This document shows, in pieces, positions 3,908 to 63,840 of a DNA stretch of 64,000 nucleotides. The first letter of the stretch is position 1, and every line of letters starts with the position of its first letter. The stretch comes from Lacibacter luteus (lineage in GTDB: Bacteria; Bacteroidota; Bacteroidia; Chitinophagales; Chitinophagaceae). Position numbers and translations under genes: made by a program. The stretch is taken from NCBI RefSeq assembly GCF_004118265.1, contig NZ_SDHW01000002.1, positions 712,245 to 776,244 on the forward strand. Direction: 5' to 3'. The notes under the pieces were generated by a model. The model was not told where the DNA came from and did no database searches. It saw only the letters and a program-made list of their open reading frames with translations.

Positions 3908-3949
3908 ATGTATCGTTTTTGATCGTCTGACGATTAGGTTTTTTGATCA

Positions 3950-3975
3950 TCCGTCAGACGCAGGCGTCGGACGGA
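3950..3975. repeat. near-perfect hairpin TCCGTCAGACGC / GCGTCGGACGGA
   Basis: A 12-bp stem with one mismatch and AG loop between asnB and the cystathionine enzyme gene. The word CGTCAGACG is repeated as CGTCTGACG at 3924 and at 5968 in front of the next gene. Confidence 0.8.
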
Positions 3976-3991
3976 TTGCAAAGATGGTAAA

Positions 3992-5833
3992 TTACAACAG
4001 ATGTGCCGCACAGAAATAACGCCAGTCGTCATTATTAACAGCATGTGCAGGTTGTGCATTCACCGGTTGCTGAAGGATGCTTTTCCGGAGGATATTTTCT
4101 TTCACCAGTTTTTGCCGGCTTTGGTTCAGCAACTCAGCAAAAGCCGGCGACTGCATCCATTGCTGTTGCGGTGGTTCGTAACCAACTTTATCGGTACGGT
4201 AAACAATAGCAGCAGGCAAATGTTCTTTTATACATTGCCGGAGGATGTTTTTTGTAAAACCGTTGTTGATCTTGTAATGCGAAGGCAACGAAAAAATAAA
4301 CTGCACCAATTCGTGTGATAAGAAAGGCAAACGAACTTCCACGCCATGTGCCATGCTGTTGCGATCGGCATAGCGAAGCAGCTCTTCGAGTCCAACCAGC
4401 ATTGTGTTATAATACAACAGATCGTTGAGCTTGCTTACAGCCGGTTTGTAAATACTTTTTTTATTAAAATGTTCTTTGCGGTAGTGATTGCTGATGAACT
4501 TGTGATTGAGTACAGCTTTGTTGGCTTTGTTTTCCAGTTGTACCGCTGTAAACTCAGGAAAGCGTGCAGCCAGTTTATTCTTCCAACTCCAGTCAACTGA
4601 AATATGATGATCAGTAAATGCCTTCAACTCACGATTCACGACTGACGACTCACGACTTTTCTCCTGCAAAAACCAATGAATGTATTTGTGATAACCTGCA
4701 AGCGTTTCATCAGCACCCTGCCCGTCGAGTATTACTTTAATATTGTTTTGCTTGGCCAGTTCGTACACTTTGTATTGGGCATAAATGCTGCTCGATTGAA
4801 ATGGTTCTTCCTGTTGAAAGATGAGGTTTTCAATATCGTTGGACAATGTGTCTGCAGTGGGGGTAACAAAATGCTGTTGCAGTTGAAATTTGTCTGCTAC
4901 CTGTTTGGCATAAGCTGTTTCATCTTTTTCAAAACCGGGGAAAGATGCGGTGAAAGTTTGTAGTTTATGGTTTCTGGTTTGAAGTTGGTTGATCATTGCA
5001 ACAATTGAAGAACTGTCTAATCCACCACTCAACGAAGTGCCCACCTCCACATCACTCCGTAATCTTCTTTTTACTGATGTGTTCAGCAAATGCAGCAATT
5101 GCTCTGCTGCATCTGCTTCGCTTATCGATAAAGTGGTTTCTTTATCAAGATCGAAATACTGCACAATTTCATTTGTACCGTTTTGTAAACTTAACTGCAG
5201 ATAATGAGCTTGCGGAAGATTGCTGATGTTTTGATAAAATGTTTGCGACAGATCGGCCGGATTTTTTACCCAGCCCAATGCAATATAATTCAGCAGCATA
5301 CTGTGATCAACCGAACGGGTAATACCTGCGGCCCACAATGCTTTCATTTCACTTGCAAAAACAAACTGCTCACCATCAAAGCTGTAATAAAAAGGTTTTT
5401 CGCCAAAACGGTCACGTGCTGCAAACAGGTTTTGTTCCTGTTCGTCCCATATTGCAAAAGCAAACATGCCATCAAACTGTTGCAGGCATTGCTCCTTCCA
5501 GCAATCGTAAGCAGCAAGCAGTACTTCGGTATCGGTTTGTGTACGAAAGCTGTAACCTTTTTGCTGCAATGTTTCTCTCAGCTCAATATAATTATACAGT
5601 TCGCCATTATAAGTAATGCTGTAGCGGTTAAGGTAGTGCATAGGTTGTTTGCCCGCATCGCTCAAATCAATAATAGCTAAACGCCTGTGACCGAAACCAA
5701 CATTGTTCGATGCATTGATCCAAAAGCCTTCACCATCAGGACCACGATGTGCAAGCGCATCGGTCATTTGTTGTAACCGTTGTGTTGAAATTTGATTCGG
5801 ATTTCTTGAAATGATGCCTGCTATACCACACAT
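3992..5833 (-). CDS. asnB: asparagine synthase (glutamine-hydrolysing)
   Basis: A 613-residue class-B asparagine synthetase. The nucleophile Cys2 of the glutaminase domain is present (MCGIAG), followed by HRGPDGEG, YNGELYNY and DRFGEKP; the synthetase domain carries the ATP PPi-loop SLSGGLDSSSI and GQGADETLAGY. It converts aspartate, glutamine and ATP to asparagine. Members of this family also serve in cell-surface polysaccharide clusters, but no such cluster adjoins it. Residues about 393-403 (SRESSVVNREL) are encoded by a four-unit array of the heptamer GTGAGTC also found outside genes in this window, so this stretch looks like an inserted repeat between helices of the synthetase domain. 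Confidence 0.93.
   Translation of the reverse strand: MCGIAGIISRNPNQISTQRLQQMTDALAHRGPDGEGFWINASNNVGFGHRRLAIIDLSDAGKQPMHYLNRYSITYNGELYNYIELRETLQQKGYSFRTQTDTEVLLAAYDCWKEQCLQQFDGMFAFAIWDEQEQNLFAARDRFGEKPFYYSFDGEQFVFASEMKALWAAGITRSVDHSMLLNYIALGWVKNPADLSQTFYQNISNLPQAHYLQLSLQNGTNEIVQYFDLDKETTLSISEADAAEQLLHLLNTSVKRRLRSDVEVGTSLSGGLDSSSIVAMINQLQTRNHKLQTFTASFPGFEKDETAYAKQVADKFQLQQHFVTPTADTLSNDIENLIFQQEEPFQSSSIYAQYKVYELAKQNNIKVILDGQGADETLAGYHKYIHWFLQEKSRESSVVNRELKAFTDHHISVDWSWKNKLAARFPEFTAVQLENKANKAVLNHKFISNHYRKEHFNKKSIYKPAVSKLNDLLYYNTMLVGLEELLRYADRNSMAHGVEVRLPFLSHELVQFIFSLPSHYKINNGFTKNILRQCIKEHLPAAIVYRTDKVGYEPPQQQWMQSPAFAELLNQSRQKLVKENILRKSILQQPVNAQPAHAVNNDDWRYFCAAHLL
4627..4657. repeat. four-unit heptamer array within asnB
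   Basis: On the plus strand the units are ACTCACG, ATTCACG, ACTGACG, ACTCACG plus ACT, i.e. GTGAGTC-type heptamers on the coding strand, encoding SRESSVVNREL in frame. Confidence 0.85.
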
Positions 5834-5958: not shown

Positions 5959-6495
5959 TTATAATTCGTCAGACGAGGTCGTCAGATGAAACGCCCCTCT
6001 TTCAATAAAGCGGTTGATGGGTTTTAAGAAGAACAGCAGCAGGCCAAGTGTTAGTAGTAGTCCTCCATTTATTAAAAACTCAGTTATTGAGTTTGAAAAC
6101 AATCGGCCTGGATAATAAAACAGATGTTTCGTGTAACTCCAAACAGGAACTCTAAGTAAAAGAAGTAGTAAGAAAAGCGAGAAGATTACATTAAGCCAAA
6201 ACCAACGTTGCTTAACGGAAAGAATAATTGAAAGAAAAAGAGCAGTTAACCATCCAATTGCACCAGATAATGTCTGCCAAATTAAAAACAACGATAAGTC
6301 TTCAACCGTAACTTCCTGTTCTTCTAATAATTTTTTTGTGCTATTACCTGATGCTTTGAAAGTGCTGATTATTTCCAGGTTAAACAAATAATACAGCGTT
6401 TCAAACGCATGCATAAAAAACCAAAAAGCAAGCGCATGAATTACTACCTGTCTCCAATTAAGTCTTGCCAAAAAATCTTTTACAGAAAAAGCCAT
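5959..6495 (-). CDS. hypothetical multi-pass membrane protein, 178 aa
   Basis: The chosen ATG at 6495 gives MAFSVKDFLARLNW; an upstream ATG at 6525 would place the first ten residues inside the terminator hairpin of the preceding gene, which argues against it. Four hydrophobic segments are visible (VIHALAFWFFMHAF, GWLTALFLSIILSV, FWLNVIFSLFLLLLLL, LINGGLLLTLGLLLFFL), so it is an inner-membrane protein. The pattern of helices around a short soluble loop does not match a family I can name. Base composition is AT-rich but not exceptional for its surroundings. Confidence 0.65.
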   Translation of the reverse strand: MAFSVKDFLARLNWRQVVIHALAFWFFMHAFETLYYLFNLEIISTFKASGNSTKKLLEEQEVTVEDLSLFLIWQTLSGAIGWLTALFLSIILSVKQRWFWLNVIFSLFLLLLLLRVPVWSYTKHLFYYPGRLFSNSITEFLINGGLLLTLGLLLFFLKPINRFIERGAFHLTTSSDEL

Positions 6496-53149: not shown

Positions 53150-54232
53150 CTACAAAAATTTATCGCCTTTATTCCGTTTCACTTCTGCAACATATTCTTT
53201 GATTTCCTGTTCTTTTTCCTTTTTGCAGATGAGTAACACATCGTGTGTGTCTACAATAATAAAATCATCAAGCCCTTGCAGCAGCACTAACTTTTTATCG
53301 TTGGCATGTACTACGTTTTTGGTAGCATCAATGATCATTACATTTTTGCCGGCCACTGCATTGCCAAAATAATCTTTCTCCATGTTTTCGTAAGCACTGT
53401 TCCATGTACCAAGGTCGCTCCAGCCGAAAGAAGAAGGCATTACATACACATTGTCGGCCTTTTCCATAATACCATAGTCGATGGAAATATTGGTACACTG
53501 CGGATAAATGCGTTCAATTGCTTCCTGTTCGGTAGCTGTATTGAAATGCTCTTTCTCAGCAACAAACACTTCGTTCATCTCCGGTAAAAACTTTTCAAAT
53601 GCTTTGATGATGTTCTTCACCTTCCAAACAAAAATGCCGGCATTCCAGAGAAAATCGCCACTGGCTAAGAATGTTTTCGCCAGTTCAAGATTCGGTTTTT
53701 CGGTAAAGGTTTTCACCTTATACACACTGTCGGCAACAGGCATTGCTTCGTGTTGAATATAACCGTAACCGGTGTTGGCGTAATGCGGTTTAATACCCAG
53801 TGTTACCAGCGCATTGATGTTGTTTACAAAATCAAACGCATCGGTACACACTTTCGTAAATGCAGGTGCATCGAGAATGAGGTGATCGGCCGGTGCACAA
53901 ATCAGTAATCCTTCGTTATTGATCTGTTGCAGCTTGTGTGCAATGTAAGCCACACAAGGCGCTGTGTTTTTTCTGCTTGGTTCGCACAAAATATTTTCAG
54001 CAGGCAAATCGGGCAACTGCTGTTTTACAATAGCAGCATATTCGGCCGACGTAACAACATAAATATTTTCATTTGGTATAAACTGCAGGTAACGATCGTA
54101 GGTAGATTGAATGAGCGTACGACCTGTATGTAAAATATCCAGAAACTGTTTGGGAAAAGCTGTACGGCTCATAGGCCAGAAACGACTGCCGATACCGCCC
54201 GCCATAATGGCTACATAATGATTTTTGTTCAT
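53150..54232 (-). CDS. manC: mannose-1-phosphate guanylyltransferase
   Basis: The ATG at 54232 gives 360 residues; an upstream in-frame start runs into a repeat array. The nucleotidyltransferase core shows VAIMAGGIGSRFWPMSRTAF, the GMP-mannose pocket FTEKPNLELAK and the mannose-1-P motif SDLGTWNS. It makes GDP-mannose for envelope glycans. It has no C-terminal isomerase domain. kdsD follows upstream on the same strand with a heptamer array between them. Confidence 0.92.
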   Translation of the reverse strand: MNKNHYVAIMAGGIGSRFWPMSRTAFPKQFLDILHTGRTLIQSTYDRYLQFIPNENIYVVTSAEYAAIVKQQLPDLPAENILCEPSRKNTAPCVAYIAHKLQQINNEGLLICAPADHLILDAPAFTKVCTDAFDFVNNINALVTLGIKPHYANTGYGYIQHEAMPVADSVYKVKTFTEKPNLELAKTFLASGDFLWNAGIFVWKVKNIIKAFEKFLPEMNEVFVAEKEHFNTATEQEAIERIYPQCTNISIDYGIMEKADNVYVMPSSFGWSDLGTWNSAYENMEKDYFGNAVAGKNVMIIDATKNVVHANDKKLVLLQGLDDFIIVDTHDVLLICKKEKEQEIKEYVAEVKRNKGDKFL

Positions 54233-54233
54233 G

Positions 54234-54304
54234 GTGAGTAGTGAGTGGCGAGTAGTGCGTGGCGAGTGGTGAGTTTCATTCACCATTCACCATTGACCAT
54301 TCAC
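54234..54304. repeat. inverted pair of heptamer arrays upstream of manC
   Basis: Six tandem 7-nt units of the form GTGAGTR (54234-54275) are followed by four CATTCAC units (54277-54304), the inverted relative GTGAATG. The array would fold into a long imperfect hairpin in the manC leader. Confidence 0.85.
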
Positions 54305-54307
54305 CTT

Positions 54308-55282
54308 TTAGATCAATCCTTCTTTAATTAAATCGTGCAAATGTATGATGCCAAGGTATTGTTTGTGCTGCACAACCAATAACTGACTGATATTATTTTT
54401 CCGCATCAGCTCCATGGCATCAATGGCTAAAGCATCTGCTTCAATCGTTTTGGGGTTGAGGGTCATAATCTGTTGGGCCTTTGCTTCGTTGAGCGAAATG
54501 TTTTTCTCCAGCATACGGCGCAAATCACCATCGGTAATTACACCCAGCAGCTCACCTGTTTCATTAACCACAGCTGTTGCGCCCAATCGCTTTTTTGATA
54601 TTTCAACAATCACTTCTTTTAACGAAGTGTCTGCCGTTACTTTCGGCTGTTCGTTGTGGATGTACAGATCGGCAACCCGCAGGTAAAGTTTTTTGCCCAA
54701 GGCACCACCAGGGTGGAACTTGGCAAAATCTTCACTCTTAAATCCACGCAATTCCATCAGGGCTACCGCCAAGGCATCGCCCATCACCATTTGCGCAGTC
54801 GTACTGCTGGTAGGCGCAAGGTTATTGGGGCAGGCCTCCTGGCTTACAGTAGTGTTGAGTACAAAATCGCTTTGTTTGGCCAGGTACGAATCCGTATTGC
54901 CAACCATACCAATAACAGGGTTGCCAAAGTTTTTTACCAGTTGGGCTAATACTTTAATCTCCGGGCTTTCACCACTTTTGCTGATGATCATCACTACATC
55001 GTGTTGCAGAATCATACCCAGATCGCCGTGAATAGCTTCGGCTGCATGCAGGTACACGGCAGGTGTGCCCGTGGAGTTGAGGGTAGCTACAATTTTTTGT
55101 GCAATCACCGCACTTTTGCCAATACCGCTAACAATAAGCCTGCCCTTGGCAGCCAGAATACTGTCGCAAATACGGGTAAAATCATCGGTAAGTAATGCCA
55201 CAAGTCCTTCAATAGCACCGGCTTCCAGTGCAATGGTTCGGCGGGCAACGTTCAGGGGGTCAATATGCTTTCTGTCTTCCAT
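54308..55282 (-). CDS. kdsD: arabinose-5-phosphate isomerase (KpsF/GutQ type)
   Basis: The ATG at 55282 gives 324 residues. The SIS domain has RLIVSGIGKSAVIAQKIVATL and ISKSGESPEIK, and a CBS pair follows (VVNETGELLGVITDGDLRRM). It isomerises ribulose-5-P to arabinose-5-P, the entry step to KDO and LPS. An upstream TTG gives extra residues not typical for the family. Confidence 0.92.
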   Translation of the reverse strand: MEDRKHIDPLNVARRTIALEAGAIEGLVALLTDDFTRICDSILAAKGRLIVSGIGKSAVIAQKIVATLNSTGTPAVYLHAAEAIHGDLGMILQHDVVMIISKSGESPEIKVLAQLVKNFGNPVIGMVGNTDSYLAKQSDFVLNTTVSQEACPNNLAPTSSTTAQMVMGDALAVALMELRGFKSEDFAKFHPGGALGKKLYLRVADLYIHNEQPKVTADTSLKEVIVEISKKRLGATAVVNETGELLGVITDGDLRRMLEKNISLNEAKAQQIMTLNPKTIEADALAIDAMELMRKNNISQLLVVQHKQYLGIIHLHDLIKEGLI

Positions 55283-63570: not shown

Positions 63571-63840
63571 GATTGCGGTTCTGCACTTACAATGGTTGCC
63601 ACGAAGACGCAAAGATTGTAAGAAACACAAAGTGGAAAGACTGCGGCGCTGCGCTTGCAATAAAGAAATAGAATCACGGATGACGCAGATTGGAGGGATG
63701 ATCACAGATTGGATTGCGGCGCTACGCTTGTAATGTGGTTGGCCACGAATAGCACGAATTAACACGAATGGATTGTGCGCTGCGCTTACAATTTGTTGGC
63801 CGCTGATAGACGCAGATGAACACAGATGTGTTGCGGTGAG
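63571..63840. repeat. alternating array of palindromic units and phrase repeats
   Basis: Four copies of a roughly 23-base unit GATTGCGGCGCTGCGCTTGC... start at 63571, 63639, 63712 and 63771. Between them lie different repeat phrases (CACGAAGACGCAAAG; CACGGATGACGCAGATTGG; CACGAATAGCACGAATTA; GACGCAGATGAACACAGATG). Confidence 0.8.

Follow-up and report, generated by a model that had tools for sequence, protein, structure and literature searches.

To our knowledge, in-frame palindromes in bacterial genes are known chiefly from Rickettsia; Lacibacter (Bacteroidota) is free-living.

Rickettsia palindromic elements (RPEs) are described, in the portions of PMC10969869 and PMC3733652 available, as short palindromes that occur between genes and also in frame within conserved genes unrelated to one another. 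REP elements with GTAG or CGTC tags are small dispersed palindromes, folding as compact tagged hairpins of 20-40 bp (PMC3733652, in part). Four tandem heptamers of Geobacter metallireducens (GGGACCG / GGACCGG) are dispersed inside and between genes and are predicted regulatory RNA elements; the portion of PMC2700814 available holds no description of in-frame inserts made by them. TAACTGA direct repeats are abundant in Beggiatoaceae, Cyanobacteria and five Bacteroidetes, and in a Beggiatoaceae genome lie mostly just upstream of start codons, with coding copies unmentioned in the available part of PMC4679880. Mitochondria of an animal group, the Nematomorpha, carry perfect inverted repeats of up to 284 bp in protein-coding genes, and the available part of PMC6649704 does not mention heptamer units.

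The repeats analyzed here have the unit GT[GC]A[AG]TN (GTSARTN), which differs from the Geobacter heptamers and places them outside the TAACTGA repeats. Judged from the partial descriptions above, the family is like RPEs in forming palindromes in frame in unrelated genes and between genes. Unlike RPEs, its arms are runs of 7-nt units, variable in number and spelling, and no constant ends were seen; unlike REP elements, its arrays are heptamer runs, none adjoining the one Y1 transposase gene found. The text of 5.39 million PMC papers gave no match to the repeat-unit and peptide strings of the family, and no description of it was present among the matches listed (title and abstract opening). The bulk of subscription papers lies outside this coverage, so the novelty of the family is not proven. 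By analogy, the family may be regarded as RPE-like palindromes, but of 7-nt units, with no prior description among the matches listed.

The window (the whole stretch of DNA analyzed, 64,000 nt) carries one array of this kind in asnB:

3992..5833, minus strand: asnB, an ORF for a glutamine-hydrolysing asparagine synthetase of 613 aa; homologs are named asparagine synthase, Lacibacter sp.

4627..4657, minus strand: heptamer array GTGAGTC GTCAGTC GTGAATC GTGAGTT, period 7, 4.4 copies; all 24 specified positions agree with GT[GC]A[AG]T.

4625..4657, minus strand: SRESSVVNREL, residues 393-403; in the model, a turn and the first half of helix 396-408, block pLDDT >90.

4640..4646, minus strand: unit 2 of the array, GTCAGTC, its only stop-phase unit, with TCA where a GTGA unit would place a TGA in frame.

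The sequence-only reading had proposed four GTGAGTC-type 7-mers in frame inside asnB, and the repeat finder, the ORF and a pattern search against shuffles all bear this out. Tandem Repeats Finder reported period 7, 4.4 copies and 83% match at 4627-4657; the codons AGT CGT GAG TCG TCA GTC GTG AAT CGT GAG TTG encode SRESSVVNREL; and a two-unit pattern at ≤2 mismatches was matched four times in the window (three in the asnB array, one at 54234) against 0.22 expected from shuffles. The array had no partner arm within 150 nt and no predicted hairpin (RNA fold z +0.46), and so lacks the two complementary arms of an RPE.

The same reading took the segment for an in-frame insert. Fourteen Lacibacter genomes, including the study genome, were compared, and the nine closest asnB orthologs were labelled L044-L052 (L044, L. 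cauensis; L045, G013; L046, G002; L049, G001). The L. cauensis protein is 88% identical to that of the study genome. A peptide of the same type and equal length was found in five of the nine (L044, L045, L046, L051, L052), the ortholog peptides at the site being IRESSVVSREL, SRDSSTVSREL, MRESSVVSHEL, ARDSSTVSHEL and SREPLVVDREL. L049 has SRQSAIVSREL preceded by two additional residues, L050 has seven residues fewer than L049, and L047 and L048 carry an unrelated LKGGG segment. The more distant L054, L056, L058 and L066 of the same genus have unrelated residues at the site and are slightly longer.

Measured from DETLAGY, the stretch spans 52-59 residues in 120 rows, the study genome (57) included, with outgroups at 58-59; only P0060 (52 residues) falls below 56. 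Rows P0072-P0120 have 58-59 residues, except P0075, a Lacibacter-type fragment of 57. The proposed alignment of residues 390-405 thus found no insertion absent from relatives, as an RPE in frame would be. Since the corresponding segment in relatives is of almost equal length, the array is not an added insert, and insertion into asnB in the lineage of the study genome was rejected. The accompanying argument that only multiples of 21 nt keep frame does not apply, since the array is 31 nt; preservation of frame by such a multiple was likewise rejected, no change of length being required. Modelling of the supposed loop (mean pLDDT 86) gave two helices, 382-391 and 396-408, joined by a short turn, the block pLDDT being 92-96 in this part, so residues 393-403 are predicted to form an ordered turn and helix, unlike a loose insert. 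Five solved AsnB-type structures were matched (best chain 7ylz_A), two of the alignments ending before residue 397.

Outside the SRESSVV group, homologs P0065 and P0070 have SRKLQ.L(S/N).E.KxF and so retain the spacing of S-R, S/N, E and K-x-F. The seven-residue spacing may therefore, in part, be ancestral protein sequence. Lacibacter-like homologs pass gradually into SRKLQTLSFEQKAF and TSRKLQLMNHELKMF.

Codon choice was assessed by synonymous draws at the long-ORF codon frequencies of contig C21, with the peptide fixed. The heptamer fit of the study gene was equalled in 58 of 200,000 draws (P 0.0003), a value that is post hoc since it was the repeats that drew attention to the site; the array uses GTC, which makes up 2% of Val codons in C21 long ORFs. 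With 20,000 draws for each ortholog, P was 0.002 for L. cauensis, 0.0019 for L045, 0.016 for L046 and 0.005 for L049, values that are not independent of that of the study gene, by descent. No significant signal was obtained for L051 (P 0.058), L052 (0.73), L050 (0.36) or L047 (0.71), and L048 gave P 0.031 at a score of only 14/24. Between the study gene and L049, nucleotide identity is 79% over the array segment, 72% over the gene and 50% at fourfold sites; between the study gene and each of the nine closest orthologs fourfold sites are 40-54% identical. On the codon test the DNA array exceeds what the peptide requires, and the heptamer-fitting codons in L. cauensis, G013, G002 and G001 indicate that it is partly shared and likely old. 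Shared peptide with unrelated codons had been named as the outcome that would contradict an insertion: the segment type is indeed shared, but the codons are not all unrelated. L047 and L048, where the segment is unrelated, branch between the clade of the study gene and L049, so the array needs one loss or two gains.

The study genome (5.07 Mb) holds 31+38 exact three-unit GTSARTN matches (overlaps counted), compared with 1+2 for the reversed pattern. At 3 mismatches the two gave 127+120 and 72+104, respectively, a weaker control than the exact pattern because reversing the unit gives a sequence similar to the original. An exact three-unit match was present in 53 of 117 family genomes, with a maximum of 1351 in G016. 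Contig C21 (776 kb) was taken whole and hence without selection for arrays. It contained nine arrays at ≤1 mismatch, compared with none in each of five order-1 Markov simulations, and six in-gene arrays at ≤2 mismatches (asnB included), compared with 0-2 in ten codon shuffles. Sixty arrays at ≤1 mismatch were counted in C21, L189-L228 and L042, all except C21 having been picked for arrays; 17 of them were flanked on each side by ≥60 open residues. Among the 17, the L227 array was judged to precede the true start codon and its ORF was removed from the gene set, and ORFs at C21:143523, 462639 and 766471 were omitted for a similar reason.

For the 59 arrays that remain when L042 is excluded, a partner arm was sought within 150 nt, two units sufficing. 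It was found in plus-then-minus order for 19 of the 59, at ten places, and in the reverse order for none, so that outside asnB the family includes palindromes, as RPEs do. An intergenic inverted repeat of the family lies in the window:

54232..54274, plus strand: left arm of the inverted repeat, with units of the GTGAGTA / GTGAGTG / GCGAGTG kind, directly next to a minus-strand start codon.

54277..54305, minus strand: right arm, of GTGAATG type, with a predicted fold with the left arm.

The sequence-only reading had reported the asnB heptamer as a tandem array outside any gene at 54234. The family and the intergenic position are as described, but position 7 is A or G, not C; and the tandem array is real but constitutes the left arm of an inverted repeat reaching 54305. 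RNA fold z for 54228-54310 was -4.0 on one strand and -5.3 on the other. In genes it was -3.0 for the fmt insert, -1.0 for the rsmF-like and -0.4 for the copA insert, the latter two folding not clearly better than shuffles. The 54232 element was matched more than once in each of the seven Lacibacter relatives searched. By eye on an alignment, same-place counterparts were present in G009, G006, G013 and G012. Also by eye, the site is degenerate in G010, and in G002 a GTGAATG-type arm lies on the left and a GAGT-type arm on the right, so that the arms look swapped. At the equivalent position in G011 (L339), a different palindrome, of CCCCTAAAGGGG type, replaces the heptamer inverted repeat.

In-frame arrays were counted in 15 genes, asnB included; the heptamer family, with its predicted hairpins, lies in frame in at least 14 other genes of the study genome. 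An NCBIfam scan of ten array-carrying proteins assigned a heavy-metal P-type ATPase (called copA), hemC, lipB, fmt, ispE, tilS, argH and a ubiD-family decarboxylase. A Mur ligase (called mpl) scored below the murC and mpl cut-offs, and an rsmF/NOL1-type methylase was also below cut-offs. Putative names given on our own reading are a branched-chain dehydrogenase fusion, icmF, an rsmB-like methylase and the large L226 gene.

Twelve of the genes, chosen for carrying arrays, were aligned with Lacibacter relatives, and all but the ubiD-family gene also with family outgroups, the outgroup rows being few (2-4 each). In nine of these eleven the study protein was longer than every outgroup row in the stretch compared: fmt (75 residues vs 52-55), copA (72 vs 36-39), rsmF-like (54 vs 40-41), tilS (73 vs 49-51), ispE (54 vs 32-37), mpl (54 vs 47), hemC (57 vs 44-54), lipB (55 vs 39-50) and the dehydrogenase (57 vs 47-52). 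It was not longer in argH (54 vs 54-57) or the rsmB-like gene (55 vs 55), and asnB belongs with these same-length cases. Outside asnB the family thus brings in-frame extra sequence to unrelated genes, as RPEs do. The resemblance to Rickettsia palindromes drawn by the sequence-only reading therefore holds for the family elsewhere, with its inverted pairs and extra in-frame sequence, but not for asnB, where a single arm adds no length.

The extra length is not general in Lacibacter. In copA, G010 matches the outgroups with 39 residues, in tilS it is shorter than they are (46) and in ispE it comes close to them (38); in mpl, G013 equals the outgroups at 47. For argH, seven Lacibacter relatives were compared: IELGSFIIE occurs in four, IDHSQFTID, the form like that of the study genome, in two and IDNSEFTID in one; IELGSFIIE and IDHSQFTID are of equal length. 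The variable stretch of lipB in G002 and G006 (L245, L246) resembles a second heptamer type, ATTCCAA / ATTCCCA, where the study genome has the GTSARTN type.

The fmt linker is G-type in the study genome and C-type in G010 (from DNA) and G001 (from the peptide). Among 120 rows, the study genome included, SMVN..WSM ... HSPLTTHHSP is a frequent form of this linker, and some rows have other repeat-like types. A regular expression detected this pattern in 50 of the 120, an undercount because 29 rows failed its anchors. Linker lengths, measurable in 102 of the 120 rows and not in the other 18, formed no clean seven-residue ladder and had modes of 48 and 49. The insert was modelled at mean pLDDT 55, with residues 187-226 below 50. 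In homologs P0134-P0239 the linker also carries SEIESGKWKVESGN, TVNSPQLSA..SSVDSGPST and other repeat-like peptides, which suggests that several repeat families may use this one site.

A sense run of perfect GTGA units gives TGA every third unit in any frame. Antisense GTGA units are stop-free in every frame, and GTCA units can give stops there. The peptides were IHHSPFT and THHSPLT for antisense GTGA runs and VNGEWSM and SSVVSRE for sense runs. As 7 and 3 are coprime, TGA falls once per three GTGA units and the stop filter is directly visible in the sequence. In the nine genes with sense arrays all 13 stop-phase units, asnB unit 2 among them, had C at position 3 (TCA in 12, GCA in one, in copA). 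In other phases of the same arrays it was C in 5 of 25 units, and in arrays with <60 open residues on one side in 32 of 165, one in-gene arm of the rsmF-like gene being counted among the latter arrays. Open reading frames by themselves account for the lack of in-phase TGA; what is informative is that the C variant, already common elsewhere, is the replacement every time.

On balance, the asnB array is probably an old, single-armed, length-neutral member of the GTSARTN family with its predicted hairpins, arm copying being the mechanism we infer. A hairpin would stall replication or repair, and template switching or short-tract conversion would then copy arms onto one another and among dispersed copies. 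Such copying would either rewrite a tolerant loop, linker or helix at unchanged length (asnB, argH, rsmB-like) or add sequence to surface linkers, as in fmt, copA, tilS and ispE. Only stop-free in-frame versions would survive purifying selection, a sense array staying open only if every third unit avoids TGA, nearly always via GTCA. The variants of the 54232 site and the fmt linker across relatives form a pattern that suggests copying from arm to arm and from copy to copy, and the equal-length argH peptides count for rewriting. Points against the reading are the missing partner arm and hairpin in asnB, the possibly ancestral spacing, the unrelated segment in L047 and L048, the orthologs that lack a codon signal, the uneven extra length within the genus, the small number of outgroup rows for genes picked because of their arrays, the fmt lengths that form no ladder and the weak folds of the copA and rsmF-like inserts.

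Ranked second is chance: the AsnB helix, ancestral and with two S-R/S-x positions at a seven-residue spacing, would have codons that happen to resemble the heptamer with no link to the family. We consider this doubtful. It accords with the spacing shared by homologs outside the SRESSVV group, with an array that forms no hairpin at a site picked for looking repetitive, and with the codon signal being absent in four of the nine closest orthologs and present in a fifth (L048) at a low score only. The peptide-conditioned fit reached in 58 of 200,000 draws, with its rare GTC, the four orthologs that fit too, and the excess of in-gene arrays in C21 over codon shuffles (6 vs 0-2) argue against it. 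The array could instead be the one-arm remnant of a mobile palindromic element in the RPE sense, inserted by a transposase and balanced in length by a deletion in the genus ancestor. The length-adding inverted arms in frame in fmt, copA, the rsmF-like gene and tilS, the length-adding arrays in ispE and others, and the multiple matches of the 54232 element in all seven relatives would be expected of such an element. We nevertheless hold it unlikely: asnB, argH and the rsmB-like gene show no added length, the elements vary in unit type and length with no constant ends seen, and no transposase gene flanked by the repeat was found, the single PF01797 match (C21:35283; nearest arrays 2066 and 49937) having no adjacent array.

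Least probable, and quite improbable, is that the repeats are selected signals (terminators, mRNA-stabilising hairpins or regulator sites) and that the gene copies are kept for that role. In-gene copies in unrelated genes, differing between species, and an asnB copy with no hairpin speak against this, while the same-place counterparts of 54232-54305 in four relatives, seen by eye, with another palindrome in G011, are in its favour, as are proposals elsewhere of heptamer repeats as regulator sites (PMC4679880 and PMC2700814, in part).

A more specific form of the family-member reading, itself improbable in our estimate, is that a self-templating Chitinophagaceae heptamer hairpin overwrites tolerant stretches of genes with length kept, the copying itself preserving the frame and GTCA at every third unit avoiding stops. 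If such overwriting occurs, asnB would be its final stage, here within a housekeeping enzyme's ordered helix. The in-frame copies in fmt, hemC, tilS, ispE, lipB, argH and other conserved genes, in a genus for which a named strain is on record (L. cauensis CGMCC 1.7271), would open to study the spread of such DNA and the range of enzymes that tolerate it. The sequence-only reading, wrong about an insert in asnB, was right as a pointer to in-gene heptamer palindromes, which specialists would not expect.

Other repeats and a length difference were also noted. At 3924-3976, beside the 3' end of asnB, lie CGTCTGACG / CGTCAGACG inverted repeats that resemble CGTC-type REP elements, with a related CGTCAGACG copy near 5968 (by eye). 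In G013 (L045) and G002 (L046) asnB is 17 residues longer than in the study genome, outside the array segment. The top-scoring tandem array in the window is a 58-bp repeat at 63697-63826 (2.2 copies, score 139).
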